A stretch of 37,668 nucleotides of DNA from Endomicrobiaceae bacterium (lineage in GTDB: Bacteria; Elusimicrobiota; Endomicrobiia; Endomicrobiales; Endomicrobiaceae). Position numbers and translations under genes: made by a program. Positions 11,113 through 34,037 of the stretch are shown here, piece after piece. Position 1 is the first letter of the stretch. Every line of letters starts with the position of its first letter. A model generated the notes under the pieces. That model saw nothing but the letters and a program-made list of their open reading frames with translations, searched no databases and was not told the DNA's origin. The DNA lies in the NCBI GenBank assembly GCA_028690485.1, contig JAQVBD010000012.1, positions 1 to 37,668 of the forward strand. Reading direction: 5' to 3'.

Positions 11113-11141
11113 TTGACAAACATATTGATTTCATATATAAT
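11113..11141 (+). promoter_or_regulatory. Perfect-consensus promoter of the pilus operon
   Basis: TTGACA (11113-11118), a 17-base spacer, then TATAAT (11136-11141): both hexamers and the spacing are ideal. The pilB ATG lies 37 bases further on, behind GGAG (11169-11172). Confidence 0.85.
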
Positions 11142-11178
11142 TCGAGGGTATTATAATATTTATAAATTGGAGATCTAC

Positions 11179-12870
11179 ATGGTACTAGAGGCTTTGAAAA
11201 AGAAGTATCTTGGTGAGATTCTTTTGGAAGAAAGGTATGTAACAAAAGAGCAATTAGATGAGTCTCTTAAGGAATCAATAAGTAACAAAGAACAGTTAGG
11301 ACAAGTCCTTATTCGCAAGGGATATATTACAGAAGATAATTTATTAAATTCTTTATCAATTTCTTTAGGTATTGAATACCGCAGATTAGCAAATGTTCAA
11401 ATTGTACAATCCGTTTTAGGTCTTATTCCTGAAAAAGTCGCTAGAAAATATTTAGCTGTTCCATTAGATATAAAAAATGATATTTTAGTTGTTGCAATGT
11501 CTGATCCAGCAAATGTTGTTTATAAAGATGATGTCCAAAAATTAACAGGAAGAAGAATATCTGTTGTTTTATCATCCGAATCAGATATAAAAGAATTTAT
11601 TGAAAAATATTATGTTAGAACATCTCTAAGTGCTGAAATAGGTGAAGATGAGATAAATAATGAAAGGAAGCAAGATGAGATAGAAGATGATTTTTCCGGT
11701 GACAATGCTGATTCTGCGCCTGTTATAAAATATGTTAATTCAATATTTTTTGATGCTATAACAAAAAAAGCAAGCGATATTCATTTAGAGCCATTTGAAA
11801 AAGAAGTTTTATTAAGAATGAGAATAGACGGTGTATTAATTGTTTTCCCGGCACCACAGAAAAAATATTATGCAGCAATTGTTTCAAGAATAAAAATTAT
11901 GTCTGAGTTAGACATCGCTGAAAGAAGATTGCCTCAAGATGGTAAATGTAGAATAAAAATCTCAAATTATAAAGTTGATATCAGAGTTTCAATTCTTCCT
12001 ACAATATGGGGAGAAAAAGTTGTTCTGAGAATTTTAGCTAAAGGAACAACTTCTTTATCTATTGACGGTATAGGTTTTGCTCCTAAAGAATTGAATTTTT
12101 TTAAGGAAGCTATAGCTGCACCATACGGGATGGTATTAGTTACAGGGCCTACAAGCAGCGGAAAAACAACAACTCTTTATTCTGCATTAAATGACATAAA
12201 TAAAGATGATATAAATATTGTTACTGCTGAAGACCCCGTTGAATATGAATTGAGAGGTATAAACCAAGTTCACGTAAGAAGTGATATTGGACTCGATTTC
12301 GCAGCAATTCTAAGAACATTTATGAGGCAAGACCCAGATGTTATTCTAGTTGGAGAAATAAGAGACAAGGAAACAGCTCAAATTGCTATACAGGCTGCTC
12401 TTACAGGACATCTTGTTTTTTCAACATTGCATACAAATGATACTGTAAGTACAATTTCCAGAATGTCGTTTATGGGTGTAGAGTCGTTTTTATTGGCAGA
12501 TGCAGTAAATTTAATAATAGCCCAAAGACTGATAAGAACTATTTGTACAGCTTGTAAAAAAGAAGTTTTAGATCTTGATGATTCAGTATATAAAAAGCTT
12601 GGTATTGATAGATCTGTCAAAGTATATAAAGGAAAGGGATGCAGACAATGTGACGGTTCAGGATATAAAGGAAGAACTGCAATATTTGAAATGCTTAATA
12701 TTTCGTCTGCAATAAAAAAAGCTATAATATCTAATGCTGGTGATACTGAAATAAGAGAAATTGCTAAAAAAGAAGGAATTGTTACTTTAAGAGAATCAGC
12801 AATGATAAAATTAAAAGAAGGAAGAACTACAATAGAAGAAGTTTTATCTGTTACATTAAAGGTGGAATAA
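11179..12870 (+). CDS. pilB: Type IV pilus / type II secretion assembly ATPase PilB (GspE family)
   Basis: A 563-residue hexameric ATPase that powers pilus extension from the inner membrane face. The N-terminal MshEN/GspE-N domain reads 'LGEILLEERYVTKEQLDESL' and 'LGQVLIRKGYITEDNLL'. The motor domain has Walker A GPTSSGKT (323-330), an Asp box, Walker B 'VILVGEIRD' and His box 'GHLVFSTLHTND'. A zinc tetracysteine is present (C456, C459, C488, C491). The ATG at 11179 is chosen because the longer frame from TTG 11113 would begin on the promoter -35 box, and because GGAG sits 6 bases upstream. First gene of the pilus operon, 4 bases before pilC. Confidence 0.95.
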   Translation: MVLEALKKKYLGEILLEERYVTKEQLDESLKESISNKEQLGQVLIRKGYITEDNLLNSLSISLGIEYRRLANVQIVQSVLGLIPEKVARKYLAVPLDIKNDILVVAMSDPANVVYKDDVQKLTGRRISVVLSSESDIKEFIEKYYVRTSLSAEIGEDEINNERKQDEIEDDFSGDNADSAPVIKYVNSIFFDAITKKASDIHLEPFEKEVLLRMRIDGVLIVFPAPQKKYYAAIVSRIKIMSELDIAERRLPQDGKCRIKISNYKVDIRVSILPTIWGEKVVLRILAKGTTSLSIDGIGFAPKELNFFKEAIAAPYGMVLVTGPTSSGKTTTLYSALNDINKDDINIVTAEDPVEYELRGINQVHVRSDIGLDFAAILRTFMRQDPDVILVGEIRDKETAQIAIQAALTGHLVFSTLHTNDTVSTISRMSFMGVESFLLADAVNLIIAQRLIRTICTACKKEVLDLDDSVYKKLGIDRSVKVYKGKGCRQCDGSGYKGRTAIFEMLNISSAIKKAIISNAGDTEIREIAKKEGIVTLRESAMIKLKEGRTTIEEVLSVTLKVE

Positions 12871-12874
12871 AAAA

Positions 12875-14122
12875 ATGTCAAAATTTTCATATAAGGCTAT
12901 GGATTCTACTGGCAAAACAGTGTCAGGTGTTGAAGAGGCAGAATCTCAGCAGAGTGCAATATCAAGGTTGAAACTTCAAGGATTAACGGTTTTTTCTATA
13001 GAAGATAGTGAAAACAATAATTTCTTTTCTCGTTTAGATGCAAAATTACAATCAAAGACTAAGAAAAAAGGCGGGAAAATAAAAACAACAGAAATCGCTA
13101 TTTTCTGTAGACAATTATCCACTCTTGTTAATGCCGGCGTAAATGTATTGGATGCAATGTCGGATATTGCTTTAATGGTTACTAATCCGTATTTTAGTAG
13201 TGTATTGACTAATATTTCAGAAGATGTTAAGTCAGGTAAAAATTTGTCAGATGCTTTGTCTGCTTATCCAAAAATTTTTGATAATGCTTTTATTTCTATG
13301 GTAATGGTGGGAGAAAAATCTGGAAAGTTAGCAAGAGTTTTGGAAGATTTGGCTTTGTTTCTTGAAAGTTCTGTAAAATTGAAAAGGAAAATAAAATCTG
13401 CAGCTGCATATCCTGTTTTCGTTGGAACATTTTTTGTTTTTGTTTTTTTTGGATTGGTCTTAGGAATTATACCAAAATTCCAGGAAATGTTTGCTTCTTT
13501 TGGTGCGACTTTGCCTTTGCCTACTAGAATGGTTATGAATTTCAGTAACCTTTTGATACAAAAAATGCCGATTTTTATCATTGCTATAATAGCTCTTATT
13601 GTTGCTTTTAAACTTTTTACAAAAATGCCTGAAGGTAAGAGAAAATGGCATAAATTTATTTTTAAAGTTCCTATTTTTGCGCCAATATATACGAAAATGA
13701 TATTTGCAAGATTTTTTCAAACTCTTTCAACTCTTGTAAAGAGTGGGGTGGATATTATTTCCTCGGTTCAAATAGCTTCAAATACAGTTAACAATACATA
13801 TGTTAGAGGTATTATTACAGATATAAAAGAGCAAATTATTACCGGTGAACAATTTTCAGTTGAGATGGATAAATATGAGTTATTCCCTAAGATGATTGTG
13901 AGAATGACTGCGGTTGGAGAAAAATCTGGACAACTAGAAGAAATGTTTGATAAAATTACAGATTATTATTCTGATGAAGTAGATGTTGCTGTTGCTACTT
14001 TGAGTTCTGTGGTTGAACCTGTATTGATTATTTTCTTAGGTTTTATAGTTGGTATTGCTGTAATTGCTCTTTATTTACCAATTTTTAATCTTGCAAATGC
14101 TATGGTTAACCAATCAACATAA
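12875..14122 (+). CDS. pilC: Type IV pilus / type II secretion inner-membrane platform protein PilC (GspF family)
   Basis: A 415-residue polytopic protein that couples the PilB motor to pilin extraction. It opens with the typical 'FSYKAMDSTGKTVSGVEEAES' segment and contains two T2SSF repeats (about residues 75-200 and 275-400), each with 'FCRQLSTLVNAGV' / 'FFQTLSTLVKSGVD' and 'MVGEKSGKL' / 'AVGEKSGQL'. Three membrane segments are visible near 175-200, 220-245 and 375-405. A strong AAGGTGGA ribosome-binding site overlaps the pilB stop. Full family length. Confidence 0.95.
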   Translation: MSKFSYKAMDSTGKTVSGVEEAESQQSAISRLKLQGLTVFSIEDSENNNFFSRLDAKLQSKTKKKGGKIKTTEIAIFCRQLSTLVNAGVNVLDAMSDIALMVTNPYFSSVLTNISEDVKSGKNLSDALSAYPKIFDNAFISMVMVGEKSGKLARVLEDLALFLESSVKLKRKIKSAAAYPVFVGTFFVFVFFGLVLGIIPKFQEMFASFGATLPLPTRMVMNFSNLLIQKMPIFIIAIIALIVAFKLFTKMPEGKRKWHKFIFKVPIFAPIYTKMIFARFFQTLSTLVKSGVDIISSVQIASNTVNNTYVRGIITDIKEQIITGEQFSVEMDKYELFPKMIVRMTAVGEKSGQLEEMFDKITDYYSDEVDVAVATLSSVVEPVLIIFLGFIVGIAVIALYLPIFNLANAMVNQST

Positions 14123-14129
14123 ACTTTAT

Positions 14130-14537
14130 ATGATAAAAAAAATATTTAATAATCATGGCGTTTCTCTTATGGAGTGTATAATTGTTGTAATAATTATAGC
14201 AGTCTTGGTTTTATTATGGGGTTTTTATGGCGGAGATCATATAAGAATTGCCATAACAAATGAAGGTCATATGTTCATTGAAAAAATTATTTCGCAGGAA
14301 AAAATGTATAGAGCTAGAAAGTCTTCATATTTGCCTATAGTTTCTACTACGACATCATCAGTAGAATTAAATATAGATACTAATCAGAATAAATATTTTA
14401 AAACTTTTAATGTTACTGTTAGTAGTAATACTTTGTACGTCAGTGCTTATGGAGAAAATGAAGCATCAGGGATAACTGTAAGAGGTATTTACGATATAGG
14501 AGTAACAAGTGGGACAGTTTTTCAAGAATTTTTATAA
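14130..14537 (+). CDS. Minor pilin, type IV prepilin-like (GspH-like position)
   Basis: A 135-residue prepilin. 'NNHG|VSLMECIIVVIIIAVL' has the peptidase site after G10, Glu at mature position 5 and a hydrophobic helix. The ATG at 14130 is chosen because it gives a normal 10-residue leader and lies 7 bases after pilC; the frame upstream of it overlaps pilC and makes no leader. No good Shine-Dalgarno is visible, so translation is probably coupled. It is first of four consecutive pilin-like genes, the place GspH occupies in type II secretion operons. The globular part is not recognisable by eye. Confidence 0.85.
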   Translation: MIKKIFNNHGVSLMECIIVVIIIAVLVLLWGFYGGDHIRIAITNEGHMFIEKIISQEKMYRARKSSYLPIVSTTTSSVELNIDTNQNKYFKTFNVTVSSNTLYVSAYGENEASGITVRGIYDIGVTSGTVFQEFL

Positions 14538-14943
14538 AATAAATTTAGGATTAACATTAATTGAGGTGTTAGTCTCTGTTGTAATAACATCAATGGTTAT
14601 GGTTTATGGAATGTCTTTTTTCATGGCAGCATGGAGAATGGAAGTAGAAAGTTCTAATTACTCAAGAATTTTAGGAAATGTTGCAAAAATAATTGAAGAT
14701 AATAGAAGTGAATATTATTCTATTGTTCCGCCTTCAGGGACTGTAACTATATCAAGTGAGGCATTACCTTCTGGTAAAGTTGTAATGTATAGTTATACTT
14801 TTTCAAGAAATATTGTTACAAACAGTATGCAAGGAGTTGCTTTAGCTGAATGGCCTTGGACAAGTTCTGCAAGTGCTGCAGAAAAAGCTTCTTGGAGTAG
14901 GATTTCTATAAAAACACATTTTGCAGAAGAATGGAAAAAATGA
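14509..14943 (+). CDS. Minor pilin, type IV prepilin-like (GspI-like position), GTG start
   Basis: A 144-residue prepilin. 'KINLG|LTLIEVLVSVVI' shows the cleavage site after G13 and Glu at mature position 5. The GTG start at 14509 is supported by AGGAG at 14498-14502, six bases upstream, and by an in-frame stop just before it (14503). The gene overlaps the preceding pilin by 29 bases. After the hydrophobic helix comes a small mixed domain with no cysteines. It is likely one of the tip-priming minor pilins. Confidence 0.85.
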   Translation: MGQFFKNFYKINLGLTLIEVLVSVVITSMVMVYGMSFFMAAWRMEVESSNYSRILGNVAKIIEDNRSEYYSIVPPSGTVTISSEALPSGKVVMYSYTFSRNIVTNSMQGVALAEWPWTSSASAAEKASWSRISIKTHFAEEWKK

Positions 14944-15536
14944 TTACAGTTAAAAGTAAAAAAGGTTTTACATTGATAGAAGTAATGGTTTCAATGATAT
15001 TATCAGCTATTGTTATTTTTTTTATTTATACTATGATGACGGTATCATATACTTCATATTCAAAATTATTTGGTGTTTCCCAGCAAAGTAATGATACTAG
15101 ATTTTTTGAAACTATGATAAAAAAATCTATTGTAAATGCTGCTTATGTGAATATGTTGCCTTCTAAGTTTTCGTTTGGATATTATGATGATAACTTAGGT
15201 ATTTATAGATTGGATGAATATTCTTTTACTACAGGTGCTTTTACAAATAGTGCAACTTTATCTGTTAATCCACCTACAACTGTAGGTAGTATACCAAGTA
15301 CTAACAGAGTTCTAAAATTGACAGTTTATAATGCAGGAGCAAGCTATACCGGAAATACAGTTGTTAGAACAGAAATTATATTGCAAAATGTTAATGCTAT
15401 ATATTATCATGAAAATAAAACAGCTGTAATGGATAATATTAGTTTGGGCTTAATATATAATAAAGTATTAGCAGATGGTGAAGTAAATTACGAAATTAGG
15501 ACATTCAAATTTACATCTAGGGATGTTTTAATATGA
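14940..15536 (+). CDS. Minor pilin, type IV prepilin-like (GspJ-like position)
   Basis: A roughly 198-residue prepilin. 'KSKKG|FTLIEVMVSMILSAIVIFF' is a textbook class III signal with Phe at +1 and Glu at +5. The chosen ATG at 14940 overlaps the preceding stop as ATGA; an in-frame ATG at 14931, three codons earlier, is equally usable. Its larger globular domain and position third in the pilin series fit GspJ/PilW-like minor pilins. The downstream gene overlaps by 4 bases. Confidence 0.85.
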   Translation: MITVKSKKGFTLIEVMVSMILSAIVIFFIYTMMTVSYTSYSKLFGVSQQSNDTRFFETMIKKSIVNAAYVNMLPSKFSFGYYDDNLGIYRLDEYSFTTGAFTNSATLSVNPPTTVGSIPSTNRVLKLTVYNAGASYTGNTVVRTEIILQNVNAIYYHENKTAVMDNISLGLIYNKVLADGEVNYEIRTFKFTSRDVLI

Positions 15537-16063
15537 GCTTAAAAGAAAAAGGGTCAATATTACCGGTCACTATAGTTGCTATGCTTATTATGACAATTGT
15601 TGGTTTGATTTGTATACAAATGTTTATGTTACAGAATATGATGAATACAGTCGATCAGGCTAGAGTTAGGACTTTTTATGCTGCAGAGGGTGCTATGGAA
15701 ATGTTAAGAGGGTACATTAATCTTAATTATCCGGAAACGAATAATGCTTTTAGTTCTTTGGCAATGCCTTGGTCACCGATTGATATTTATATAAATAGTT
15801 CAGGTAATTATTATGATAGGACTATTCATCCGGGAATTTATGCTCGGGCAGTTTGTAATAGGTTAGCAAGTGCTAATGCTGTTCCGGGACTTCCTATTGT
15901 AACTGAAGAATTTGGTAAAACATATAATTATTATGCTATAACAGGTATATCTTCTGCAACTGTTAATTTTAAAGTAGTTGCATCTACTGTAGCATATTAT
16001 TTCTATACTGTTTATGATGGAACTAATAATATAAAGCATTTTAGAGGATGGAGGGAACTTTGA
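15533..16063 (+). CDS. PilX/GspK-like minor pilin lacking Glu5
   Basis: A 176-residue protein with the N-terminus 'KEKG|SILPVTIVAMLIMTIVG'. Prepilin-type cleavage follows G7, but mature position 5 is Val, not Glu. 'QARVRTFYAAEGAMEMLRGY' resembles the conserved stretch after the helix in PilX_N proteins ('AAE' motif). Loss of Glu5 is characteristic of GspK, the tip pseudopilin, and of PilX-like proteins. It is fourth in the H-I-J-K-like series and overlaps the preceding gene by ATGA. Confidence 0.82.
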   Translation: MSLKEKGSILPVTIVAMLIMTIVGLICIQMFMLQNMMNTVDQARVRTFYAAEGAMEMLRGYINLNYPETNNAFSSLAMPWSPIDIYINSSGNYYDRTIHPGIYARAVCNRLASANAVPGLPIVTEEFGKTYNYYAITGISSATVNFKVVASTVAYYFYTVYDGTNNIKHFRGWREL

Positions 16064-17067
16064 TTGGAATTGATTTAGGATCAAAATTTGTTAAAGTATG
16101 TAAGGTTATTAATGATGGTAAAAAATCTAGCCTTTCAATTTTATGTGCTATGACAATGTCATCTTCAGATACAGCTTTTCAAAAAATGGCTTTATTGTCA
16201 ATATTAAAAAAATTGAAAATTGATTCAGATGCAAGTTTTTTAGCAGTTGGAGGGCAAGGTTTAATTCACAGAGATTTGTTGGTATCTAAGAAAATAGATA
16301 AAAAAAATTTAAAAAATGTTATTAAATTAGAAGTGGAGCAATCAATAACAGAAGATTTGGATAAAATGTTTTCTTCTTTTACAATTACTAAGGATATTTC
16401 TGAAGAAGAGTGCAATGTTTTATTTTCAGCAGTACCTAGAGATCAAATCTTTTCAAAAGTTCATGTAGTCAAAAATGTACAGAATTTAAAACTTGTTGGT
16501 ATTACTATGGAATCCTTAGCATTAGTTAATGCATTTAACACATTTGGTCCAAGCTATAAGAATACTGAAAGTATAATTTTAGTAAATATTGGGCATACTA
16601 AAACAAATATTACTGTTTTAAATAATAAAGAATTAATTTTTATGAGAGATGTTGAGTTTGGTGGTAAAGATGTAACAAGTGATATATCGAATTTATATAC
16701 AATACCGGAAAAACTTGCAGAGGAAATAAAGAGAAGAACGGATTTATGGAATGATATAGGTTTTAATGTAAAGAATGTACTGAAAAAAAGTACAGCAACA
16801 TTATTAGAAGCAATATTTAGGACAATAGAACATTGCATAACTAGACAATATATTGTTGCTGTTGACAGAGTTGTTATTACTGGCGGTGGAGCTATGTTAG
16901 AAGGGATTGATGTTTTTATTGGTGATACATTAGGAATTGCGACTAATAAATGGAATCCTTTAATTGATAACAATGTTACTGGATATGTAAACCAAAACTA
17001 CGGCTATTTTATGCCGATATCTTTAGGTTTGGCTATTGAAAAGGAGTTTGATAATGTACAGAATTAA
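16060..17067 (+). CDS. pilM: Type IV pilus inner-membrane accessory protein PilM (actin-like)
   Basis: A roughly 335-residue actin/FtsA-fold protein that binds PilN's cytoplasmic tail. 'LIGIDLGSKFVKVCKV' is the phosphate-1 loop, 'SIILVNIGHTKTNITVL' the phosphate-2 loop, and 'VVITGGGAMLEGIDVFI' the adenosine motif. A TTG at 16060 is preferred: GGAGGG at 16050-16055 is correctly placed for it and it overlaps the previous stop as TTGA. The alternative ATG at 16048 gives four more residues but has AGAGG directly abutting it. No membrane segment is seen, which fits a cytoplasmic protein. Confidence 0.9.
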   Translation: MIGIDLGSKFVKVCKVINDGKKSSLSILCAMTMSSSDTAFQKMALLSILKKLKIDSDASFLAVGGQGLIHRDLLVSKKIDKKNLKNVIKLEVEQSITEDLDKMFSSFTITKDISEEECNVLFSAVPRDQIFSKVHVVKNVQNLKLVGITMESLALVNAFNTFGPSYKNTESIILVNIGHTKTNITVLNNKELIFMRDVEFGGKDVTSDISNLYTIPEKLAEEIKRRTDLWNDIGFNVKNVLKKSTATLLEAIFRTIEHCITRQYIVAVDRVVITGGGAMLEGIDVFIGDTLGIATNKWNPLIDNNVTGYVNQNYGYFMPISLGLAIEKEFDNVQN

Positions 17068-17632
17068 CTATATAACTGATATAGTAAGAAAAAATAAAAC
17101 TGAAATATATTTTATAAAATTTTGTAAAATATTAAATCTATTTGTTCAGCTTACAATTATATTTTTATTAGTGAGTTCTGTATATTTATACAATAAAATA
17201 AATGAATATAATGAAAATATAAAACAGATAAAACAATCGATAGAAGAAAAAAGACAATCTAATAATATGGATGCCGTTGAAAAAGAATGGAATGGTTATT
17301 ATTTTAAATTGACAGCAATGAAAGAACAGTTGAGTAAAAATACGAATTACGGTTTGATTTTTAAGGAATTAGGGAATTTCTTGCCAAGTGATGATTTTAT
17401 TACAACAGCTGCTGCAAATGATACAAATATGTTGATTAATTTAAATTTAGGTAAAAATAAATTAAAAGAGCTGAAAAATGTTTATGACTATGAAAATGTA
17501 TTAAAAATGGCTTTTGACAGAAGTGTATATTTTGATAAAAATATAAAGATAGAGTTGTTATATGAAGATAAAATTGATAATAAGCTTATTAATTTGTTAA
17601 AAGTTAATATGCCAATATATTCGAGGAAGTGA
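17054..17632 (+). CDS. pilN: PilN-like type IV pilus inner-membrane protein
   Basis: A 192-residue bitopic protein. A short cytoplasmic N-terminus ('YRINYITDIVRKNK') contains an INYI motif close to the INLLP-type motif that docks PilN onto PilM. One transmembrane helix (about 30-52) and a coiled-coil-prone periplasmic region ('NKINEYNENIKQIKQSIEEK') follow. Sequence identity to PilN is weak by eye; the call rests on topology, motif and position between pilM and a pilO-like gene. The ATG at 17054 is set by AAGGAG at 17041-17046. Confidence 0.78.
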   Translation: MYRINYITDIVRKNKTEIYFIKFCKILNLFVQLTIIFLLVSSVYLYNKINEYNENIKQIKQSIEEKRQSNNMDAVEKEWNGYYFKLTAMKEQLSKNTNYGLIFKELGNFLPSDDFITTAAANDTNMLINLNLGKNKLKELKNVYDYENVLKMAFDRSVYFDKNIKIELLYEDKIDNKLINLLKVNMPIYSRK

Positions 17633-17636
17633 TTAT

Positions 17637-18554
17637 ATGAATATTAATATGACAAATAGAAATTTTGCTTTTTTTGTAAATTTAATCGTTTTTATTGTTA
17701 TTATGTCTGGCATATATATATTTGTGTATTCAAAATATAATAGCATGTTAAACGAAAAAAAGATTATTTATGACAGATTTAATGCTATTAATATGCAATT
17801 AAATGATTTTTCAAACATACAGAGAAGTATAGATGAACAAAAAGACAAGATAACTGAAATAATATCTGAATATGAAGATTTTTTTATTCCTAATGATGAA
17901 ATAGTGAATAGATATAAGGTTCAGGTAATAAAATTACTTAAACAATATGAAATTCAATCTACTGATGATAATATCAAACAAATACAAAAAGAAGGAAATA
18001 ATATAGTTTTGACATTAAATTTAAAAGCTACATATGATCAAGTTTATAAATTTTTGTTTGATATAGAAAAATTTTCAACAGTTTCAAATGTTACAATGTC
18101 ATATACAGGTAATGTCACAATTGATTGCAGCCCTGTTCTTTATTCGTCATCTATTAATGACTATTTTAGTGGAAGAGTTGAACAGTCTATTGATGAAATT
18201 TCAGCAAAAGGGTATTTTAAAGAAATCTCTGATAAAATATTTTCGTCAATGGATGTCGGATATGTTCCTACTTGGAGAGATTTATTGCCTGTTCCTAGAA
18301 ATCCTTTCATTTCAGGTTTTGTTAAGAAAAAAGTTGTACAAAAATATGTTAGCCAACCTGTTATTTCTAGAGCTGTACCGGTTATTGTATTAGAAGGTAT
18401 CATGTATGAAACTAAAAATCCTATTGTTATTATAGAAGGACAGCTTTATCCTAAAGGGGCAATTTATAAAGGTGCTAAAATTATAAAGATAGAACAGAAT
18501 TCAATAACTGTTGATTTTTATGGAAAAAATTATACAATAAAAATGTTAAACTAG
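17637..18554 (+). CDS. pilO: PilO-like protein with a PilP/GspB-like C-terminal domain
   Basis: A 305-residue protein. Residues 12-32 are a single membrane anchor. A coiled coil (about 33-80, 'NEKKIIYDRFNAINMQLNDF...') and a ferredoxin-like PilO region (about 90-150, 'VIKLLKQYEIQS', 'ATYDQVYKFLFDIEKF') follow. After a linker with 'DLLPVPRNPF', residues 245-305 form a short beta-rich domain, 'IVLEGIMYETKNPIVIIEG', '...GAKIIKIEQNSITVDFYG', with the pattern of PilP, GspB or GspC homology domains that contact the secretin. Normal PilO is about 200 residues, so this looks like a natural PilO-PilP type fusion. AGGAAG (17624-17629) precedes the ATG. Confidence 0.75.
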   Translation: MNINMTNRNFAFFVNLIVFIVIMSGIYIFVYSKYNSMLNEKKIIYDRFNAINMQLNDFSNIQRSIDEQKDKITEIISEYEDFFIPNDEIVNRYKVQVIKLLKQYEIQSTDDNIKQIQKEGNNIVLTLNLKATYDQVYKFLFDIEKFSTVSNVTMSYTGNVTIDCSPVLYSSSINDYFSGRVEQSIDEISAKGYFKEISDKIFSSMDVGYVPTWRDLLPVPRNPFISGFVKKKVVQKYVSQPVISRAVPVIVLEGIMYETKNPIVIIEGQLYPKGAIYKGAKIIKIEQNSITVDFYGKNYTIKMLN

Positions 18555-18563
18555 GGAGAAAAG

Positions 18564-19832
18564 ATGAAGAAAAAAATTCTTGTGTTTTTAGTCGCTATTT
18601 TGGTTTCATGTTCTGGTTTTGTCTATGCTGTGAATGAAAAAACTGAAAAAGAAGTAACTTCTATTGGATTAATATCTATTGATTTCCAGGGAACAACATT
18701 GTACACAGTATTAAATGTTCTTAGTATGAAAACCGGTATGAGACTGATTACAGATACAACATTATATGATAAAAAAATAATGTTATCTTTAAAAGATGTT
18801 ACAGCTGAAGAAGCGTTGAATGCTTTGTTAGATACATATGATTTATATTATGTTAAACAAGGTGATGCTAATATTTATGTTATAAAAAGTAAAGCAGACG
18901 GTAGCCATATTACAGTTTCAAGAGTAATATTTTGCAATTATGCAAAAGCATCTGATTTAGAAAAAATATTAGAAACGAGATTATCCAAAGGCGGTAAAAT
19001 AGTTTCTGACATTAGAACAAATTCTGTAATTATTACAGATCTTGCAGACAGTATAGATAAAATGGAAAGTCTTATTAGGTCTTTAGATGTTCCAACTCAA
19101 CAAGTTATGCTTGAAGCGAAAATTGTTGATGTCAACTTGTCATCAGGGCTTTCTTTAGGAACAAAATGGAATGAAACTTATAGAAATGGATTAGTTAATC
19201 CTGTTTCAGGTTTAAACAATTTTACATATAGCACGCCTATGGGAACAGCTGCCGGGTTAGGATTAAATAAGTCTTTTGGTAAAATAGGAGTTTCTATTTT
19301 AGAAGGAGATTGGAATATTAATGCAATAATAGAGGCTGGAATAGAAGATAAAAATGCTAAAGTTCTTTCAAATCCTAAATTATTAGTTTTAAACAATCAA
19401 GAAGCTACAATTGATATAGTAGAAGAAGTACCTTATTTAGAGAGTAAGACAACATCTGCTTCAACAGGTGATACTTCTGGGACAACAGCTTTTAAACAAG
19501 TTGGTATTAAGTTGAAAGTTAAACCTCAAATTAATAGAGATGGTTCTATCGTTTTATCAGTTTCTCCTGAGCAGAGTTACAGAACAGGTGAGACTATTGG
19601 TACAGATAATACACCTGTAATTAATACAAGTAAAACAACAACGACATTAATGTTAAGAAGCGGAGAAACAGCAGCTATTGGTGGATTAATAAGAGAATCT
19701 GAAGATAGTACAATAAATAAAGTTCCATTATTAGGTGATATTCCAATTATAGGTTATTTATTTAAAGGGTACACAAAAAATAAAACCAGATATGAACTCA
19801 CGATCTTTATAACAGCAAAAATTGTAAATTAA
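18564..19832 (+). CDS. pilQ: Secretin (PilQ/GspD family)
   Basis: A 422-residue outer-membrane channel subunit. A signal peptide (1-22, ending 'GFVYA') also contains 'LVSC', which could be a lipobox. An N0/STN-like domain ('IDFQGTTLYTVLNVLSMKTG', about 38-107) and one N1 domain (about 115-175, 'NSVIITDLADSIDKMESLIRSLD') precede the secretin core from about 185 ('MLEAKIVDVN', 'VLSNPKLLVLNNQEA', 'VGIKLKVKPQI', 'SGETAAIGGLI', 'PLLGDIPIIGYLF'). It is shorter than typical PilQ (600-700 residues): no AMIN domains and only one N1. GGGAG precedes the ATG. Confidence 0.93.
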   Translation: MKKKILVFLVAILVSCSGFVYAVNEKTEKEVTSIGLISIDFQGTTLYTVLNVLSMKTGMRLITDTTLYDKKIMLSLKDVTAEEALNALLDTYDLYYVKQGDANIYVIKSKADGSHITVSRVIFCNYAKASDLEKILETRLSKGGKIVSDIRTNSVIITDLADSIDKMESLIRSLDVPTQQVMLEAKIVDVNLSSGLSLGTKWNETYRNGLVNPVSGLNNFTYSTPMGTAAGLGLNKSFGKIGVSILEGDWNINAIIEAGIEDKNAKVLSNPKLLVLNNQEATIDIVEEVPYLESKTTSASTGDTSGTTAFKQVGIKLKVKPQINRDGSIVLSVSPEQSYRTGETIGTDNTPVINTSKTTTTLMLRSGETAAIGGLIRESEDSTINKVPLLGDIPIIGYLFKGYTKNKTRYELTIFITAKIVN

Positions 19833-19843
19833 GGATTTAAAAC

Positions 19844-20413
19844 ATGGAAAATGAAAATGTTACGAAAGTATTAATTATAGAAGATGAGCCAAGTGAGAGA
19901 TTGAGTTTAAAAGCATCTTTGGAAGCTGTTGGAATGCAGGTAGAAGCTGTTGAGACGGGGTTAGAAGCAGAATCTTTAGTTAAAGATATGTTTTTTGATG
20001 TTTTAATAGTTGATTATAGATTACCTGATATAGATGGTTTAAATTTAATAAAAAAATTAAATTTGATTTCATCTGATTTAATACCAATAGTTGTAACTGC
20101 ATACAGCTCTGTTGAAATTGCTGTTGAAGCTATGAGGATGGGTGCATATGACTATATGGTAAAACCATTAAACATTGATTCTTTATTAAAAACTATTGAA
20201 ACAATGCTGTTTGATAGAGAATCTCTTATTAATGGAAGAAAAAAATTAACACAAATGGTTGGATCTAATATGAATTATGTATACAAAGATGAAGATGTGA
20301 CGGTTATATCTGCATTTGATTCTAATGTTTTATTAGATAAAACAGAAATTTCTGTAATGGATAAAATAAAAGTTATCTTTAATACAGTAAAAAATTATTA
20401 TTGGGGTTCATAA
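19844..20413 (+). CDS. Stand-alone response regulator receiver protein
   Basis: A 189-residue CheY-like receiver. Acidic pocket 'IIEDE' (about 11-15), phospho-acceptor D57 in 'VLIVDYRLPD', T85 in 'VVTAYSS' and K107 in 'YMVKPLN'. The receiver resembles NtrC-type domains but no AAA+ or DNA-binding domain follows. The last ~65 residues ('LTQMVGSNMNYVYKDED...') are unrecognised. No histidine kinase gene is in the window. Its place between the secretin gene and the secreted repeat protein suggests control of pilus assembly or activity by phosphorylation. AAGGA precedes the ATG. Confidence 0.88.
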   Translation: MENENVTKVLIIEDEPSERLSLKASLEAVGMQVEAVETGLEAESLVKDMFFDVLIVDYRLPDIDGLNLIKKLNLISSDLIPIVVTAYSSVEIAVEAMRMGAYDYMVKPLNIDSLLKTIETMLFDRESLINGRKKLTQMVGSNMNYVYKDEDVTVISAFDSNVLLDKTEISVMDKIKVIFNTVKNYYWGS

Positions 20414-27588: not shown

Positions 27589-28900
27589 AGCACCTAGAGG
27601 AACACATGATATTTTTGGTAAGTTAGCTTTAGGACTAGAAAAATTAGATTTAATTTCAAGACAAGTATTTAGAAAACATAATTTTAAAGAAGTTAGAACA
27701 CCTATTTTTGAAGATGTCTCTTTATTTACGAGGTCTATTGGTGAAGCAACAGATATTGTTGAAAAGGAAATGTATGTTTTTGAAGATAGAAAGGGAAGAA
27801 AATTAGCTTTAAGACCGGAAGGGACAGCATCTCTTGTTAGAGCATATATAGAACATAGATTTGATATGACAGAACCTATCGGTAAATTTTTTTATTCAGG
27901 TGAAATGTTCAGATATGAAAGACCACAAGCAGGAAGATACAGACAGTTTTTACAAATGGGTGCGGAATATTTAGCAAATCCAAGTCCAAATGCAGATGTA
28001 GAAATTATTTTGGTAGCAAAAGAAATATTATCAACTTTAAATATAAAAGATATTACAATCCATTTAAATTCATTAGGTTGTCCTAAGTGCAGAGCAGAGT
28101 TTAGACAAAAATTAGTTGATTATTTTGCATCTATTAGTGATTTGTGTGAAGATTGTAAAAGAAGATTAGAAAAAAATCCTTTAAGATTATTGGATTGTAA
28201 AATAGATTCAAATAAATTTCAAAACGTTCCTACAATGCAGGAATGTTTATGTGATGACTGTAATAATCATTTTCAACAGGTTCAAGCATTGTTGAAAAGA
28301 GTTGATTGTGATTATATAGTTGACCATAAACTTGTTAGAGGATTGGATTATTATACAAGAACTGTTTTTGAGGTTCGTTCATCGTCGGTTGGTTCTCAAG
28401 ATGCTTTATGTGCAGGCGGAAGATATGACAATTTAGTAAAGGAATTAGGCGGGCAACAGATTCCAAGTGTAGGTTTTGCTTTAGGGTGTGAAAGAGTTTT
28501 AATGGCATGTGAACAAAATGGTTTTTTTGATAGTCTTCAAACAGATGATGTTGTCTTTATTGCATTGGCAGATGAAGAATTATTTGTAGATGCTTTTACT
28601 TTTGCAAATGACTTAATATTAAACAATAATGATATAAGAAAAGATATTTGTTTATCTGAAAATATAATAATAGAAGGTCCTTTTTTAAATAAAAGTTTAA
28701 AATCACAATTTAAACTTGCTGATAAAATTGGTGCTAAAAAAACAATAATTTTCGGTAAGAATGAATTTGATAAAGGCAAAATTATTGTTAAAGATATGGT
28801 TACTCAAGAACAAAAAGAAGTTAAATTGCCGGATTATTGTTTTAATCGTCAAATTTGTAATACAGATTCTAATGAAGTATTTAAAAATGTTAAAAAATAG
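27575..28900 (+). CDS. hisS: Histidine-tRNA ligase
   Basis: A 441-residue class II aminoacyl-tRNA synthetase. 'APRGTHDIFG' opens the protein, 'LRPEGTASLVRAYIEH' and 'FRYERPQAGRYRQFLQMGAEYL' are motif 1/2 elements, 'LVRGLDYYTRTVFEV' is the histidine-specific HisA motif, and 'GGRYDNL' with 'PSVGFALGCERVLMA' supplies motif 3. A C-terminal anticodon-binding domain follows. Two CxxC pairs ('GCPKC', 'LCEDC') and 'CLCDDC' sit in the insertion domain. The ATG at 27575 is chosen for GGAG at 27564-27567; the longer frame from 27554 lies inside DUF502. It ends inside the TadE-like gene. Confidence 0.97.
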   Translation: MSIYKAPRGTHDIFGKLALGLEKLDLISRQVFRKHNFKEVRTPIFEDVSLFTRSIGEATDIVEKEMYVFEDRKGRKLALRPEGTASLVRAYIEHRFDMTEPIGKFFYSGEMFRYERPQAGRYRQFLQMGAEYLANPSPNADVEIILVAKEILSTLNIKDITIHLNSLGCPKCRAEFRQKLVDYFASISDLCEDCKRRLEKNPLRLLDCKIDSNKFQNVPTMQECLCDDCNNHFQQVQALLKRVDCDYIVDHKLVRGLDYYTRTVFEVRSSSVGSQDALCAGGRYDNLVKELGGQQIPSVGFALGCERVLMACEQNGFFDSLQTDDVVFIALADEELFVDAFTFANDLILNNNDIRKDICLSENIIIEGPFLNKSLKSQFKLADKIGAKKTIIFGKNEFDKGKIIVKDMVTQEQKEVKLPDYCFNRQICNTDSNEVFKNVKK

Positions 28901-29405
28901 AAAAGGCAATGCTTTTGTTGAAGCTCTTTTTATTTTGCCGATGATGGTTTTGATGTTTGTCTCGGTTATATGGTTTGCAAGAGTTCTTTTAACTTGGCAG
29001 CAATTAATTTCTGCCACTAGATATGGTACGGATATGATAGCTACCACAACATTAAATGCCTATGATATAAAAAAAGATATTGAGAATTATTTAACACATA
29101 GAATGATAGATGGAAGAAGATTAGATGCTGAAAAGATTAAAGAAATAAATGTTGATATTAATGATTATCCAAAAATTGATATTAATGTTAGAGATTTAAC
29201 TAAGATTTTTAATGATATAAACGGATTGATAAAAGGATTACTTATTCCAAATGCGGATGTTTCATCTGTAAAAATTACTTATTGTTATGATTTACCTAAC
29301 ATTATGCATTTTGTTGGTTTAAAAGAAATTAATATAACTGCAAAATCATCTGTTTTATCCGGTAGTGGATGTAAAAATAATATACATAATAGGTCTTCAA
29401 AATAA
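28887..29405 (+). CDS. TadE-like pseudopilin
   Basis: A 172-residue TadE-family protein. 'KNRKG|NAFVEALFILPMMVLMFVS' shows a prepilin-type site with Glu at mature position 5 and the family's 'VEA...LP' motif in the single helix. 'TWQQLISATRYGTDMIATTT' is the conserved post-helix segment. The ATG at 28887 is preferred (GAAG at 28874-28877, normal short leader); ATG 28872 is possible. It overlaps the hisS 3' end by 14 bases, so it is read through from the hisS transcript and opens the Tad pilus module. Confidence 0.82.
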   Translation: MLKNRKGNAFVEALFILPMMVLMFVSVIWFARVLLTWQQLISATRYGTDMIATTTLNAYDIKKDIENYLTHRMIDGRRLDAEKIKEINVDINDYPKIDINVRDLTKIFNDINGLIKGLLIPNADVSSVKITYCYDLPNIMHFVGLKEINITAKSSVLSGSGCKNNIHNRSSK

Positions 29406-29425: not shown

Positions 29426-29590
29426 ATGTTAAGAAGCAATAAAGGACAAGGAATGGTAGAATATATTTTAATCGTAGTATTAATAGTTATTGTTGCATTA
29501 GTAGGTGTTAAATTGTTTGGTAAAAATGTAAATGAAATTTTTACATCTTCTGCTGATAAAATATCTCAGGAAGCAAGTGCAAATAGATAA
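29426..29590 (+). CDS. flp: Flp/Fap-type pilin (major Tad pilin)
   Basis: A 54-residue small gene: MLRSNKGQGMVEYILIVVLI..., ending in ASANR. It matches the Flp signature exactly, with processing after G7, then four residues and E-Y (QGMVEY) and a hydrophobic helix, leaving a mature pilin of 47 residues. A strong GGAGG at 29412-29416 precedes the ATG. Flp is the only pilin of this class in the window and would form the Tad fibre; prepilin peptidase (TadV/CpaA) is not in the window. Confidence 0.9.
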   Translation: MLRSNKGQGMVEYILIVVLIVIVALVGVKLFGKNVNEIFTSSADKISQEASANR

Positions 29591-29591
29591 T

Positions 29592-30428
29592 ATGAAAAAA
29601 ACTTTTATACTATCTGGAATTTTGGCATTGTTATCAACAATTTTCGTTGTTCTTTATTTATATGATATTGAACAAAAAAATAAAGCAATGTCTGAACCTG
29701 TGAAAATTGTTGTTGCAGATGTAAAAATAGAACAGGGAAAAATAATTACATCTTCAATGCTTAAAGAAAAATTTGTACCTAAACAATATGTTCAGCCAAA
29801 GTACATATCAAGTATAAAAGATTTTTATGTTGACAAAAATCCTTCATTTATGTCAATAGTGGCTTTTGAAGAGGGTGAACAAATCACATCAACTAAAGTT
29901 TTACCAATTACATCTGATGCAGGTATATCTAATACTATACCTGATAATAAAAGAGCTGTAACATTAATTTTTGATAGAGATGAGATTGCAGGTATAGTTG
30001 CTCCCGGCAGCAGAATAGATTTAATATCAATTATTGAATATGAAAATAAAGATAAAACCCTTATAGAATCATCACTTGTAATAGCTCAGAATTTATTAGT
30101 TTTAGCTGTAGGTAATAATGTTATTGGCGGTATAAACGATATCAAACAAGAAAATATAACTGTAAATTTACCTGTTACTATGGCAGTATCAATTATAGAA
30201 GCTCAGCAAATAATGCTTGCTCAGGAAAAAGGTATTATAAAAATAGCATTAAGACCATCAGGTGATTTAACAGTTAATCAAATACAGCCAATAAAAATAA
30301 ATGATATTTTTAAAGATGCATCAAAAACTGTATTAAAACAATCAAATAGCGATATGCAAACTTTAAAAGAAATTCAAAAATCTCAAAAAGAAGCTATTGA
30401 TATAATAAACAGGTATTCTTCAAAATGA
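29592..30428 (+). CDS. cpaB: Tad pilus assembly protein CpaB/RcpC
   Basis: A 278-residue CpaB/RcpC protein, a periplasmic Tad component thought to work with the secretin. An N-terminal signal/anchor helix (about 4-22, 'FILSGILALLSTIFVVLYLY') is followed by an SAF domain ('IVVADVKIEQGKIITSSMLKEKFVP', 'FEEGEQITSTKVLP') and the C-terminal RcpC region ('RAVTLIFDRDEIAGIVAPGSRIDLIS', 'NLPVTMAVSIIEAQQIMLAQEKGIIKIALRPSGD', quoted here in pieces of the visible text). The ATG at 29592 sits one base after the flp stop. Confidence 0.9.
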   Translation: MKKTFILSGILALLSTIFVVLYLYDIEQKNKAMSEPVKIVVADVKIEQGKIITSSMLKEKFVPKQYVQPKYISSIKDFYVDKNPSFMSIVAFEEGEQITSTKVLPITSDAGISNTIPDNKRAVTLIFDRDEIAGIVAPGSRIDLISIIEYENKDKTLIESSLVIAQNLLVLAVGNNVIGGINDIKQENITVNLPVTMAVSIIEAQQIMLAQEKGIIKIALRPSGDLTVNQIQPIKINDIFKDASKTVLKQSNSDMQTLKEIQKSQKEAIDIINRYSSK

Positions 30429-32356
30429 AAAACAATAAAATAATATCAATCATTCAAATAGATAGTCCTTTATATGTAAATACATTGCTAAGCGGAATGT
30501 CAAGCTTGTATTCTTATCAAGATAAGAATACTGTTGTTGTTGATATTAGAAGCGTTAAAAGTGATATTCTTTGGTCTGTTTATGGTAAGGAAAACATAAA
30601 ATATATAGATGAAATATTAAATGTAGGATCAAGTATAAATACTCAGATGTTAAAAACATATCTTGATTCAAAAAGTGAAATTTTATGTGTTAGAGATATA
30701 AATAATATATTGCAAAATGTTAATATAAATTATTTTTTTGAATGTTTAGCATCTATATATGACAATATTATTTTAGTTATCCAAGATAAATCAGTAGAGT
30801 GCAAAAAGTTCGTTTTAGGTATCTCTGATATAATACTGTTTTCTTTTATTAAAGAACCAACTTCGTTTGAAAATTGTAAAAATTTGTATTTGGAACTTTC
30901 AACTGAAAAAACAAAAGAAATTAGAATGTTGCCCGTTATGTTTGATATAGAAACAAATTATGATTTTGATAATGAAGATTATGATTTTATTTATAAAGAA
31001 CTTATAGTATTGCCTCTTTCTTTTAAAATTAAACAAGAAGTTCTCAATGCAAATTTTTTATTTAATGATAAATCAAATGCATTTGTAAAAGCATTGGATA
31101 ATTTAATTGAAAAAATTTCAAAAAGCAATTGTATAGCTGTAAAAAAAGAATATTCTCCTTGTGATCCAATATCTAAATATAAAGAGATAAAATCTAAAAT
31201 ACATAAAGATTTAATTGTAAGAATGCAAGAATATGCAAATGAAAAAGATCAACAAAAATTACGCAATATTGTTGAGATGCAAATAGAAGGTTTGTTAAAG
31301 TTTATTGACATAGGATTAAGTTTTACTGAAGAACAAAGATTAACTAAAGAACTTTCAGATGAAATTTTAGGTTTAGGGGTTTTAGAAGATTTTCTTAACG
31401 ATAATGAAATTACAGAAATAATGGTAAACGGGTGTCAAAATATTTATGTTGAAAAAAATGGTAAATTGCAACAGACAGAAATAAAATTTCAAGATACAAA
31501 TAAGTTAAGAATAGTTATAGATAGAATCGCTTCTTCCGTTGGACGGCATATTGATGAAGCTTCTCCAATTGTTGATGCAAGGCTTCAAGATGGTTCAAGA
31601 GTAAATGCTGTTATTGCACCAATTGCTCTTAATGGTCCAATATTAACAATAAGAAAATTTGCAAAACATAAACTTTCTGCAGATGATATTATATCTTATG
31701 GCAGTGCCAATATTGAAATGATAAATTTTTTAACTCAGGCAGTTAAAAATAAACAAAATATTTTAATTTCCGGTGGAACAGGAACCGGTAAGACTACTTT
31801 ATTAAATGTGATATCATCATTTATTTCTGATGATGAGAGAATTATAACTATAGAAGATTCAGCTGAATTACAATTACAACAAAAACATGTTATCAGACTA
31901 GAAACCAGAACAAAGTCTATAGAAGGAACATCTGAGATAACAATCCGACAATTAGTTGTTAATGCATTAAGAATGAGACCGGACAGAATTATAGTTGGTG
32001 AATGTAGATCCGGAGAAACTCTTGATATGTTACAGGCAATGAATACTGGACATAATGGGTCAATGACAACAGTTCATTCTAATTCATGCAAGGATGCTAT
32101 TTCCAGACTTTTAGTAATGGTTATAATGGCAGGTGTGGATTTGCCGGAGAAATCAATACTTTCTATGATATATTCAGCAATAAATATTATTGTTCAGATT
32201 AAGAGATTCCCTGATGGAAGCAGAAAAATATCAGAAATTTCACTTCTTCAAAAATCAAGTGATAATTCGTATGAACTTGTTCCGGCTTTTCAATATGATA
32301 TAGAAAGTAATACTTTCAAGACACTTCTTTCATTAGAGCAAGGTTGTTGTAAATGA
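30425..32356 (+). CDS. TadZ-like/CpaF fusion: Tad secretion ATPase (TadA) with N-terminal degenerate MinD-like domain
   Basis: A 643-residue protein, about 200 longer than ordinary CpaF/TadA. Residues 300-640 are the secretion ATPase: 'EILGLGVLEDFLNDNEITEI', 'GSRVNAVIAPIAL', Walker A GGTGTGKT (450-457), 'TIEDSAELQL', Walker B 'IIVGECRSGE' and 'GHNGSMTTVHSN'. Residues 1-230 ('KIISIIQIDS...', 'NTVVVDIRSVKSDILW', 'YDNIILVIQDKS') have the alternating strands of a CpaE/TadZ MinD-like localisation ATPase but no Walker A. TadZ normally is a separate gene next to tadA, so this appears to be a natural fusion. It overlaps cpaB and tadB by 4 bases each (ATGA). Confidence 0.85.
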   Translation: MKNNKIISIIQIDSPLYVNTLLSGMSSLYSYQDKNTVVVDIRSVKSDILWSVYGKENIKYIDEILNVGSSINTQMLKTYLDSKSEILCVRDINNILQNVNINYFFECLASIYDNIILVIQDKSVECKKFVLGISDIILFSFIKEPTSFENCKNLYLELSTEKTKEIRMLPVMFDIETNYDFDNEDYDFIYKELIVLPLSFKIKQEVLNANFLFNDKSNAFVKALDNLIEKISKSNCIAVKKEYSPCDPISKYKEIKSKIHKDLIVRMQEYANEKDQQKLRNIVEMQIEGLLKFIDIGLSFTEEQRLTKELSDEILGLGVLEDFLNDNEITEIMVNGCQNIYVEKNGKLQQTEIKFQDTNKLRIVIDRIASSVGRHIDEASPIVDARLQDGSRVNAVIAPIALNGPILTIRKFAKHKLSADDIISYGSANIEMINFLTQAVKNKQNILISGGTGTGKTTLLNVISSFISDDERIITIEDSAELQLQQKHVIRLETRTKSIEGTSEITIRQLVVNALRMRPDRIIVGECRSGETLDMLQAMNTGHNGSMTTVHSNSCKDAISRLLVMVIMAGVDLPEKSILSMIYSAINIIVQIKRFPDGSRKISEISLLQKSSDNSYELVPAFQYDIESNTFKTLLSLEQGCCK

Positions 32357-33156
32357 CACCTCTTTATTTAGTATGTTTCTGTATATCCTTTTCATTGCTT
32401 ATATATATATTATTTTTGTTTGTTTTAGAAAAAATAAATAAAAGTAATAAAAAAAAATCTAAAATAAAAACATATGGTAATAAAAAAAATATTATAATTT
32501 TATTATCTATATTTATAATACTATCTGTAATTTTGAATATTATATTTTCAATCTTGATAAGTATGATAGTTATTTATTTTAATTGGTTGTATAAAAAGAA
32601 ACAAGAACAAAATTATAGAAAAAGTGTGGACAAACAGATTGTTGAATCAATAAGAATATTTAGAAATATTATTTTGTCAGGTCAATCAATATTACAAGCA
32701 ATAGATGCAGTTTCTAAGCAAGTAAAGCCCCCTTTAGCAGATGAATTCAGAAAGATATTTGAAAGAGTTTCATTAGGTGTTGGTTTAGATGAGGCATTGC
32801 AAGAATCTTCTTTGAATATTCAAAGTGAACAATATAAACTGTTTATAGATTCAGTAAGAATATCCAATATCACAGGTGCAAAGTTATCGGATATTTTAGA
32901 TAAAATAGAAAAATCTATTACACAAAGACTTGTCATATATTCAAAAGTAGAAGCATTAACTTCACAAGGCAAAATGTCAGGTAATATTATTAGTGTAGTT
33001 CCTTTTTTTATTATTTTATTTGTATATTTTATTGAACCTGATATGATGAGTGTTTTATTTACAACTTTAATTGGAAATATTATTTTATTTATATCAATCG
33101 TTATGATGTTATTAGGTTCTTTTTTTATGAGAAAAATATCGGAGATAGATATTTAA
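32353..33156 (+). CDS. tadB: Tad pilus inner-membrane platform protein TadB
   Basis: A 267-residue membrane protein of the T2SSF type. Two N-terminal hydrophobic segments (about 5-25 and 46-75) precede the T2SSF domain: 'ESIRIFRNIILSGQSILQAIDAVSKQVKPPLADEF', shown here as separate conserved blocks 'RNIILSGQSILQAI' and 'LGVGLDEALQESS', then 'LFIDSVRISNITGAKLSDIL' and two C-terminal helices. It couples the TadA motor to Flp pilin extraction together with TadC. ATGA overlap with the ATPase gene and one-base overlap with tadC indicate tight coupling. Confidence 0.88.
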   Translation: MTPLYLVCFCISFSLLIYILFLFVLEKINKSNKKKSKIKTYGNKKNIIILLSIFIILSVILNIIFSILISMIVIYFNWLYKKKQEQNYRKSVDKQIVESIRIFRNIILSGQSILQAIDAVSKQVKPPLADEFRKIFERVSLGVGLDEALQESSLNIQSEQYKLFIDSVRISNITGAKLSDILDKIEKSITQRLVIYSKVEALTSQGKMSGNIISVVPFFIILFVYFIEPDMMSVLFTTLIGNIILFISIVMMLLGSFFMRKISEIDI

Positions 33157-34037
33157 TGTATTTAATTTTAGCATCTTTATGTTTTTTTATATTATCGATA
33201 ATAATAATAAATTATTTATTAAGTACTTTTATAATTGTATCTAATAAAATGAAACAATATAATGTCAAAAAACATGATAAATATTTTCTATTATCGTTTT
33301 TTATATCTTTTTCAAAACCTTTGGTTTTTATATTAAAAAAAATCAAAACAAAATATTTTATTAATTATATCAATAAAGTAAATTCTATATTAAAAACTTT
33401 ACAGTATCCTTATACAAATCTGAATGGATATAGTTTTTTTGTTTTACAATTTGTAATTATGTTAATAAGTATTTTGGTTGCAGTTATTTTAGTAGGGTTT
33501 GATATAGTAATTATTGTCTGTGTCGGGATATTATTTTTTATTTTACCGTATTTAAAAATTTATGAAGAAAACAGGAAAAAAGTTTCATTAATAATCAGAC
33601 AATTACCTAATTTAGCAGATTTATTATCTGTAATGATTGTTTCCGGTGTAGATTTTAATAATGCACTTGTTAAAATAGCATCAATATTACAAGGTACATT
33701 GTCATCAGAGATAAAAAATATTATCTCAAAAGTATCATTTGGCATAGATGTTAAAGCCGCTCTTAATGAAATGGCTGAAAAATATAATTTAGAACAATTG
33801 AATTTATTTGTCAGGGCTGTAAATTCATCATTAGAATCAGGGCTTGGAATATCAGATGCATTAAATAAAATTTCAGAGCAGATTAAAATAGAAAATGCAT
33901 CTATTGCAGAGAAAAAAGCTCAAGAAGCTCCCGTAAAAATGTTAATCCCCATGACTTTACTTATTTTGCCGACAATATTTATATTATTATTTGCTCCGAT
34001 TATCATTTCTTTTATTAGAACAGGGTCATTTTTTTAA
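33156..34037 (+). CDS. tadC: Tad pilus inner-membrane platform protein TadC
   Basis: A 293-residue membrane protein with a T2SSF domain. An N-terminal helix (2-24), a helix pair near 90-130 and the conserved block 'QLPNLADLLSVMIVSGVDF', 'KVSFGIDVKAALNEMAEKY', 'LNLFVRAVNSSLESGLGISD' precede a C-terminal helix ('MTLLILPTIFILLFAPIII'). It is the paralogous partner of TadB. It is the last Tad gene; the heat-shock promoter begins 18 bases after its stop and no hairpin terminator is visible between them. Confidence 0.88.
   Translation: MYLILASLCFFILSIIIINYLLSTFIIVSNKMKQYNVKKHDKYFLLSFFISFSKPLVFILKKIKTKYFINYINKVNSILKTLQYPYTNLNGYSFFVLQFVIMLISILVAVILVGFDIVIIVCVGILFFILPYLKIYEENRKKVSLIIRQLPNLADLLSVMIVSGVDFNNALVKIASILQGTLSSEIKNIISKVSFGIDVKAALNEMAEKYNLEQLNLFVRAVNSSLESGLGISDALNKISEQIKIENASIAEKKAQEAPVKMLIPMTLLILPTIFILLFAPIIISFIRTGSFF

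Follow-up and report, generated by a model that had tools for sequence, protein, structure and literature searches.

The open reading frame at positions 30425-32356 of the forward strand of the window, which is the whole of a 37,668-nucleotide contig of an Endomicrobiaceae bacterium (GCA_028690485.1, JAQVBD010000012.1; designated C76 in the draft genome, which totals 1.63 Mb), is very probably a natural gene fusion, in which TadZ/CpaE, the localiser of the Tad pilus machine, is joined to the N-terminus of the motor CpaF and in which the TadZ part would act as a constitutive pseudo-ATPase scaffold. The frame starts at ATG and encodes 643 amino acids without interruption. The nearest named relative of the source genome is Ca. 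Praeruminimicrobium purgamenti (Endomicrobiaceae, Elusimicrobiota). The product consists of a TadZ/CpaE-like domain with the ParA/MinD fold and without a P-loop (N-domain; residues 1-233, positions 30425-31123), a flexible linker (residues 234-247, 31124-31165) and a complete CpaF/TadA motor (residues 248-633, 31166-32323), all on the + strand. A preliminary description of the sequence had placed about 230 residues ahead of the CpaF ATPase in a single fused frame, and this layout was borne out. The homologies of both parts are firm. The architecture itself occurs throughout the phylum, and what stands out is that the localiser has lost its ATP site within the fusion.

The motor comprises a three-helix first N-terminal domain (NTD1, residues 248-315), a second one (NTD2) and an ATPase domain, as determined from Pfam and NCBIfam matches, comparison with sequences of solved structures, and a structural model. 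The library matches to T2SSE/CpaF start near residues 288-317, and residues 288-607 match the Caulobacter-type CpaF structures at 332 bits over 320 residues. Residues that do not vary in a set of 32 CpaF proteins are retained, including the Walker A loop GGTGTGKTT at residues 450-458 (31772-31798, + strand). The gene is encoded together with tadB, tadC, cpaB and pseudopilin genes, as is the case for CpaF/TadA. In the full-length AlphaFold2 model, the N-domain is followed by a low-confidence linker at residues 235-247, where the predicted local distance difference test (pLDDT) is below 50, and then by a normal CpaF three-helix NTD1, NTD2 and ATPase domain. The extension might be taken for the ordinary N-terminus of CpaF, which the preliminary description had named as a refuting case; this was rejected because the three-helix bundle of NTD1 comes after the N-domain in the model.

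When residues 1-242 were searched as a single sequence, no Pfam family was matched, and the only NCBIfam match was a chance-level one to a pyruvate kinase model (E 0.022). The AlphaFold2 model of residues 1-233 is confident (pLDDT 80.5; predicted template modelling score, pTM, 0.81), and its comparison by Foldseek, the kind of structural check proposed beforehand, retrieved ParA/MinD structures with E ~1e-8, a probability of 1.00 and TM-scores up to 0.73. The two strands picked out earlier as signs of a MinD-like domain are present in the model, at residues 36-41 ('TVVVDIRS') and 114-120 ('YDNIILVIQD'), and the protein opens directly with the initial strand of a MinD fold. Because the alignment used for the N-domain model held TadZ relatives, the main weight was put on sequence profiles. 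Four alignments were compared, namely Endomicrobiaceae N-domains (A1), N-domains of related families with broken motifs (A2), fused domains from the rest of the phylum and Omnitrophota, most of which bear the motif (A3), and free-standing TadZ/CpaE proteins encoded upstream of unfused cpaF (A4). The successive steps are strongly linked, with E of 1.3e-15 for A1-A2, 7.6e-49 for A2-A3 and 4.5e-42 for A3-A4, and the longer steps gave 1.2e-07 for A1-A3 and 9.6e-07 for A1-A4 directly. When A1 was compared, as a control, with reversed or column-shuffled versions or with the CpaF core, the probability never exceeded 1.6% and E never fell below 0.03. The A2 and A3 profiles match MinD, FleN and ParA structures directly; the best structure for the profile of the intermediates is 3ea0 (1.7e-28), which is also the best for free-standing TadZ/CpaE, and the motif-bearing A3 profile also matches the E. 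rectale TadZ, 3fkq (5.4e-08). These comparisons place the N-domain in the ParA/MinD superfamily as a homologue of TadZ/CpaE-type MinD proteins.

The sequence profiles by themselves do not separate TadZ from MinD sharply. The N-domain is assigned to TadZ/CpaE rather than to another MinD relative because of the position of tadZ beside cpaF and the covalent link to CpaF. In the Tenericutes locus L068, tadZ is a gene of its own, 9 bases ahead of cpaF, and a single tblastn match of the fused protein spans both genes; at many other loci, a free-standing TadZ/CpaE gene likewise precedes cpaF. A separate tadZ elsewhere in the source genome, part of the other refuting case named beforehand, was not found among the ParA-family profile matches, which are other proteins: Soj, a Wzc-like kinase, two ferredoxin-type MinD proteins and Mrp. 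No unfused TadZ was seen beside the Elusimicrobiota cpaF loci. Separately, a response-regulator receiver protein at 19844-20413 of the window, adjoining a secretin gene, is the only non-fused protein of the Elusimicrobiota loci touched by the TadZ/CpaE profile, probably via the receiver-like part of that profile.

At the columns of the deviant Walker A motif, where relatives have STKGGVGKTL, GPKEGVGKTS or GSKGGVGQTL, the fused protein has QIDSPLYVNT (residues 11-20, 30455-30484, + strand). The Walker A lysine is thus absent, as had been noticed at the outset, although its absence by itself is not unusual for TadZ/CpaE. The standard Walker A motif is likewise missing from several of the free-standing CpaE proteins that were aligned. 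The loss is graded among the fused proteins. Most Omnitrophota fusions have KGGVGKT/S at these columns; most Elusimicrobiota families have PKEGVGKT/S, with the A' aspartate lost; families f12, f15 (one copy) and f10 have KGGVGQT or KGGCGQT; families f7, f9 and f2-f6 have broken motifs; and no P-loop motif is present in any Endomicrobiaceae domain read. In a tree of the CpaF core, built without the N-domain, these motif groups nest in the order of erosion, with a support of 100 for Endomicrobiaceae and moderate support of 86-94 for the deeper nodes. Because the groups nest in that order, the fusion is read as having come first, and the decay of the ATPase site probably took place after it, in the lineage leading to Endomicrobiaceae.

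Several points weigh against the identification of the gene as a TadZ-CpaF fusion. Pfam recognises no Endomicrobiaceae N-domain alone as ParA/MinD, and the A1 profile gave nothing significant against PDB sequences, so that its link to MinD goes via the intermediates; its single weak match, to 2oze (Orf delta', E 0.19), was not used. The predicted fold depends in part on the homology claim. The full-length model has a pTM of only 0.57, too low to fix the relative arrangement of the domains, and the receiver-like domain of many free-standing TadZ/CpaE proteins is absent from the N-domain. The source genome is a draft (96.5% complete, 122 contigs), from which a distant separate tadZ may have escaped. 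The missing match of the family-level profile to solved structures would also suit an unrelated Rossmann-like domain that resembles TadZ by convergence. The stepwise profile links with their clean reversed and shuffled controls, the position of the domain in the place of tadZ in other operons, and the recurrence of the nested order on the CpaF tree make convergence very improbable indeed.

Evolution of the N-domain is about twice as fast as that of the motor core, the nucleotide-binding residues are all gone in Endomicrobiaceae, and a number of reduced genomes in the family lack any match to the fused protein, as would be expected if the domain were functionless freight that is slowly being lost. 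However, the ratio of nonsynonymous to synonymous substitution rates (dN/dS) in Endomicrobiaceae pairs from several genera is 0.08-0.26 in the N-domain compared to 0.04-0.13 in the core, where the ratios of the widest pairs are approximate because dS is near saturation; the close pairs L115/L116 and L117/L124 gave 0.13 and 0.26 for the N-domain. Among 34 Endomicrobiaceae domains, Trp50 and Asp40, the retained A' aspartate (30542-30544, + strand), are invariant, and six further positions are nearly invariant. In addition, no complete frame without the N-domain was found among the Endomicrobiaceae loci read. The P-loop-less N-domain is under purifying selection, constrained but more loosely than the core, and decay towards loss is an improbable account of it.

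The fusion is not an artefact of assembly or frameshift, as it is also carried by independent genomes. It recurs in one frame and with unchanged boundaries in Ca. Praeruminimicrobium (79% identity over the full length), in other Endomicrobiaceae genera and in one single-contig genome of the family. Of the 295 Elusimicrobiota genomes sampled across the phylum, 236 match the fused protein, and nearly all the frames listed exceed 620 aa, compared to about 420-490 aa for unfused CpaF. The N-terminus was read in loci of 20 Elusimicrobiota families, and the fusion was present in all 20. Among the matches listed, the exceptions are several short frames that are cut by contig ends and an extra unfused cpaF (L180) in genome G009, which also has two fused copies. 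Among 58 Omnitrophota genomes searched, 23 match, 13 of them with a frame of 694-744 aa; the others have ordinary CpaF, and some have both. A group of Bacillota also has the fusion, and on the N-domain tree the Omnitrophota, Bacillota and Elusimicrobiota fusions may have one origin or more than one. The long Micromonospora frames L035 and L036 were set aside, as in this high-GC DNA they look like frame read-through upstream of cpaF; separate TadZ/CpaE frames overlap them. In the preliminary description, the architecture was not recognised as a characterised one. It is not unique to the source genome, and no paper describing a TadZ-CpaF fusion was found in the open-access literature, a search to which architecture databases and subscription papers were external; priority of describing it is not established. 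Tad-like regions have been reported in Endomicrobium proavitum and Elusimicrobium minutum with no mention of a fusion (PMC8809381).

Two further observations concern the fused loci. Directly after the fused gene, two Omnitrophota loci have a second CpaF, unfused and very divergent (L017 6756-7979 and L029 4428-5648). In Elusimicrobiota outside the Endomicrobia lineage (L145-L158), the linker between the N-domain and NTD1 is longer and has a recurring EF..GADLLWKP-type motif, which is absent from the short Endomicrobiaceae linker.

TadZ is regarded as a polar protein that recruits the other Tad parts (PMC6668835). For Caulobacter, a fit with six CpaE dimers surrounding the CpaF hexamer has been made and contacts between the two proteins have been predicted; in the piliated state, CpaE shifts to the CpaF base (PMC13170226). 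In Elusimicrobiota, the fusion would predate the diversification of the phylum. Because the link is covalent, a CpaF hexamer would carry six TadZ domains on its ring through the short linker, with localiser and motor at 1:1. A localiser that arrives with its motor would need no ATP-driven dimerisation, and in Endomicrobiaceae, ATP-dependent dimerisation should be impossible because the P-loop is absent. The N-domain may then be a constitutive scaffold for docking the motor, either at the inner-membrane platform or at some cellular site, and we infer that such a docking domain is the simplest reading of the P-loop loss. A more specific proposal, for which the balance appears even, is that the Endomicrobiaceae localiser is a permanent nucleotide-free collar of the motor, in which six pseudo-ATPase TadZ domains per hexamer replace an ATP-switched, recruited localiser, so that positioning and motor assembly become one event.

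The loss of the nucleotide site also takes away the ATP switch expected of a localiser, and the linker is flexible. The N-domain could thus be a TadZ relative that no longer localises and has become an allosteric regulator of the motor, for instance if it reached into the nucleotide pockets of CpaF, which is what has been proposed for the variable NTD0 extensions of other CpaF proteins; in Caulobacter, retraction is reported to be reduced when CpaF loses NTD0 (PMC11300603). This explanation, the principal rival, is possible but rather doubtful, as the domain is folded rather than a short extension and corresponds to TadZ, which is a localiser elsewhere, and no other TadZ was found for that job.

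The fused gene belongs to a compact operon with the order tadE-cpaB-fusion-tadB-tadC, all on the + strand, and overlaps cpaB upstream and tadB downstream by 4-base start/stop overlaps. The tadE-like pseudopilin gene is at 28887-29405 (Pfam TadE, 1.9e-07; longest frame from 28761), cpaB/rcpC at 29532-30428 (NCBIfam TIGR03177, above cut-off), the tadB-like platform gene at 32353-33156 (Pfam T2SSF, 1.8e-15) and the tadC-like platform gene at 33156-34037 (Pfam T2SSF, 4.3e-15). A second Tad cluster, split from the motor operon, lies on another contig of the source genome (L177 7409-9956; G000 contig C104) and comprises a secretin, a 59-aa Flp-like pilin, and TadE-like and TadG-like proteins, where all the assignments except the secretin were made by sequence reading. 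With these parts, the Tad machine of the source genome looks usable. The secretin of this cluster (L177 7409-8140) and that of a distant Elusimicrobiota genome (L179 8832-9593) are short Tad-type secretins of about 240-255 aa, in which the secretin domain follows the signal peptide almost at once and the usual N-domains are absent; in L180, a 283-aa frame similar to them precedes cpaF. At 11113-19832, the window also has a further cluster of the type IV filament/type II secretion kind, with a PilB/GspE-like ATPase, a GspF-like protein, pseudopilins, a PilM-like protein and a 422-aa secretin.

Compared to the known CpaF/TadA motors of Tad pili (8rkd, 8rjf, 9e24), the fused protein likewise has a complete NTD1-NTD2-C-terminal domain arrangement with intact catalytic residues. 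Where Caulobacter CpaF has a disordered NTD0 (PMC11300603), the fused protein has an extra folded domain. CpaF is similarly extended N-terminally in the FHA-CpaF proteins among the relatives (L008, L025, L034, L044 and L067), whose extension appears FHA-like from a look at the sequence, with no library comparison, and is not MinD-like as here. The TadZ/CpaE proteins, such as the E. rectale TadZ (3fkq) and Caulobacter CpaE, have a homologous ATPase-like domain and are encoded with the motor, as in the present case, and atypical nucleotide sites are documented in TadZ (PMC6668835, PMC13170226). These two are separate proteins, as is typical, with the receiver-like N-terminal domain often found in the group, whereas the fused domain is covalently joined to CpaF, has no receiver-like domain and has wholly lost the P-loop; the Bacilli TadZ of about 250 aa also lacks the receiver-like domain. 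The fused proteins of Omnitrophota and Bacillota (L017, L166-L174 and L009; about 680-745 aa) share the architecture but mostly keep the KGGVGKT-type motif, which the Endomicrobiaceae fusion does not. Within a single phylum the ATP site is lost by degrees, and the proteins concerned form a convenient series for studying the purpose of the TadZ ATPase. That CpaE and CpaF function as a unit, a view resting in Caulobacter on a tomographic fit and predicted contacts, receives independent support from a natural fusion of the two that has long been conserved. The fused system would have six TadZ copies per hexamer, compared to 12 CpaE in the model of the Caulobacter motor (PMC13170226), and this 1:1 ratio, set against the 2:1 ratio (six CpaE dimers) of the in situ model, tests which features of that model are general.
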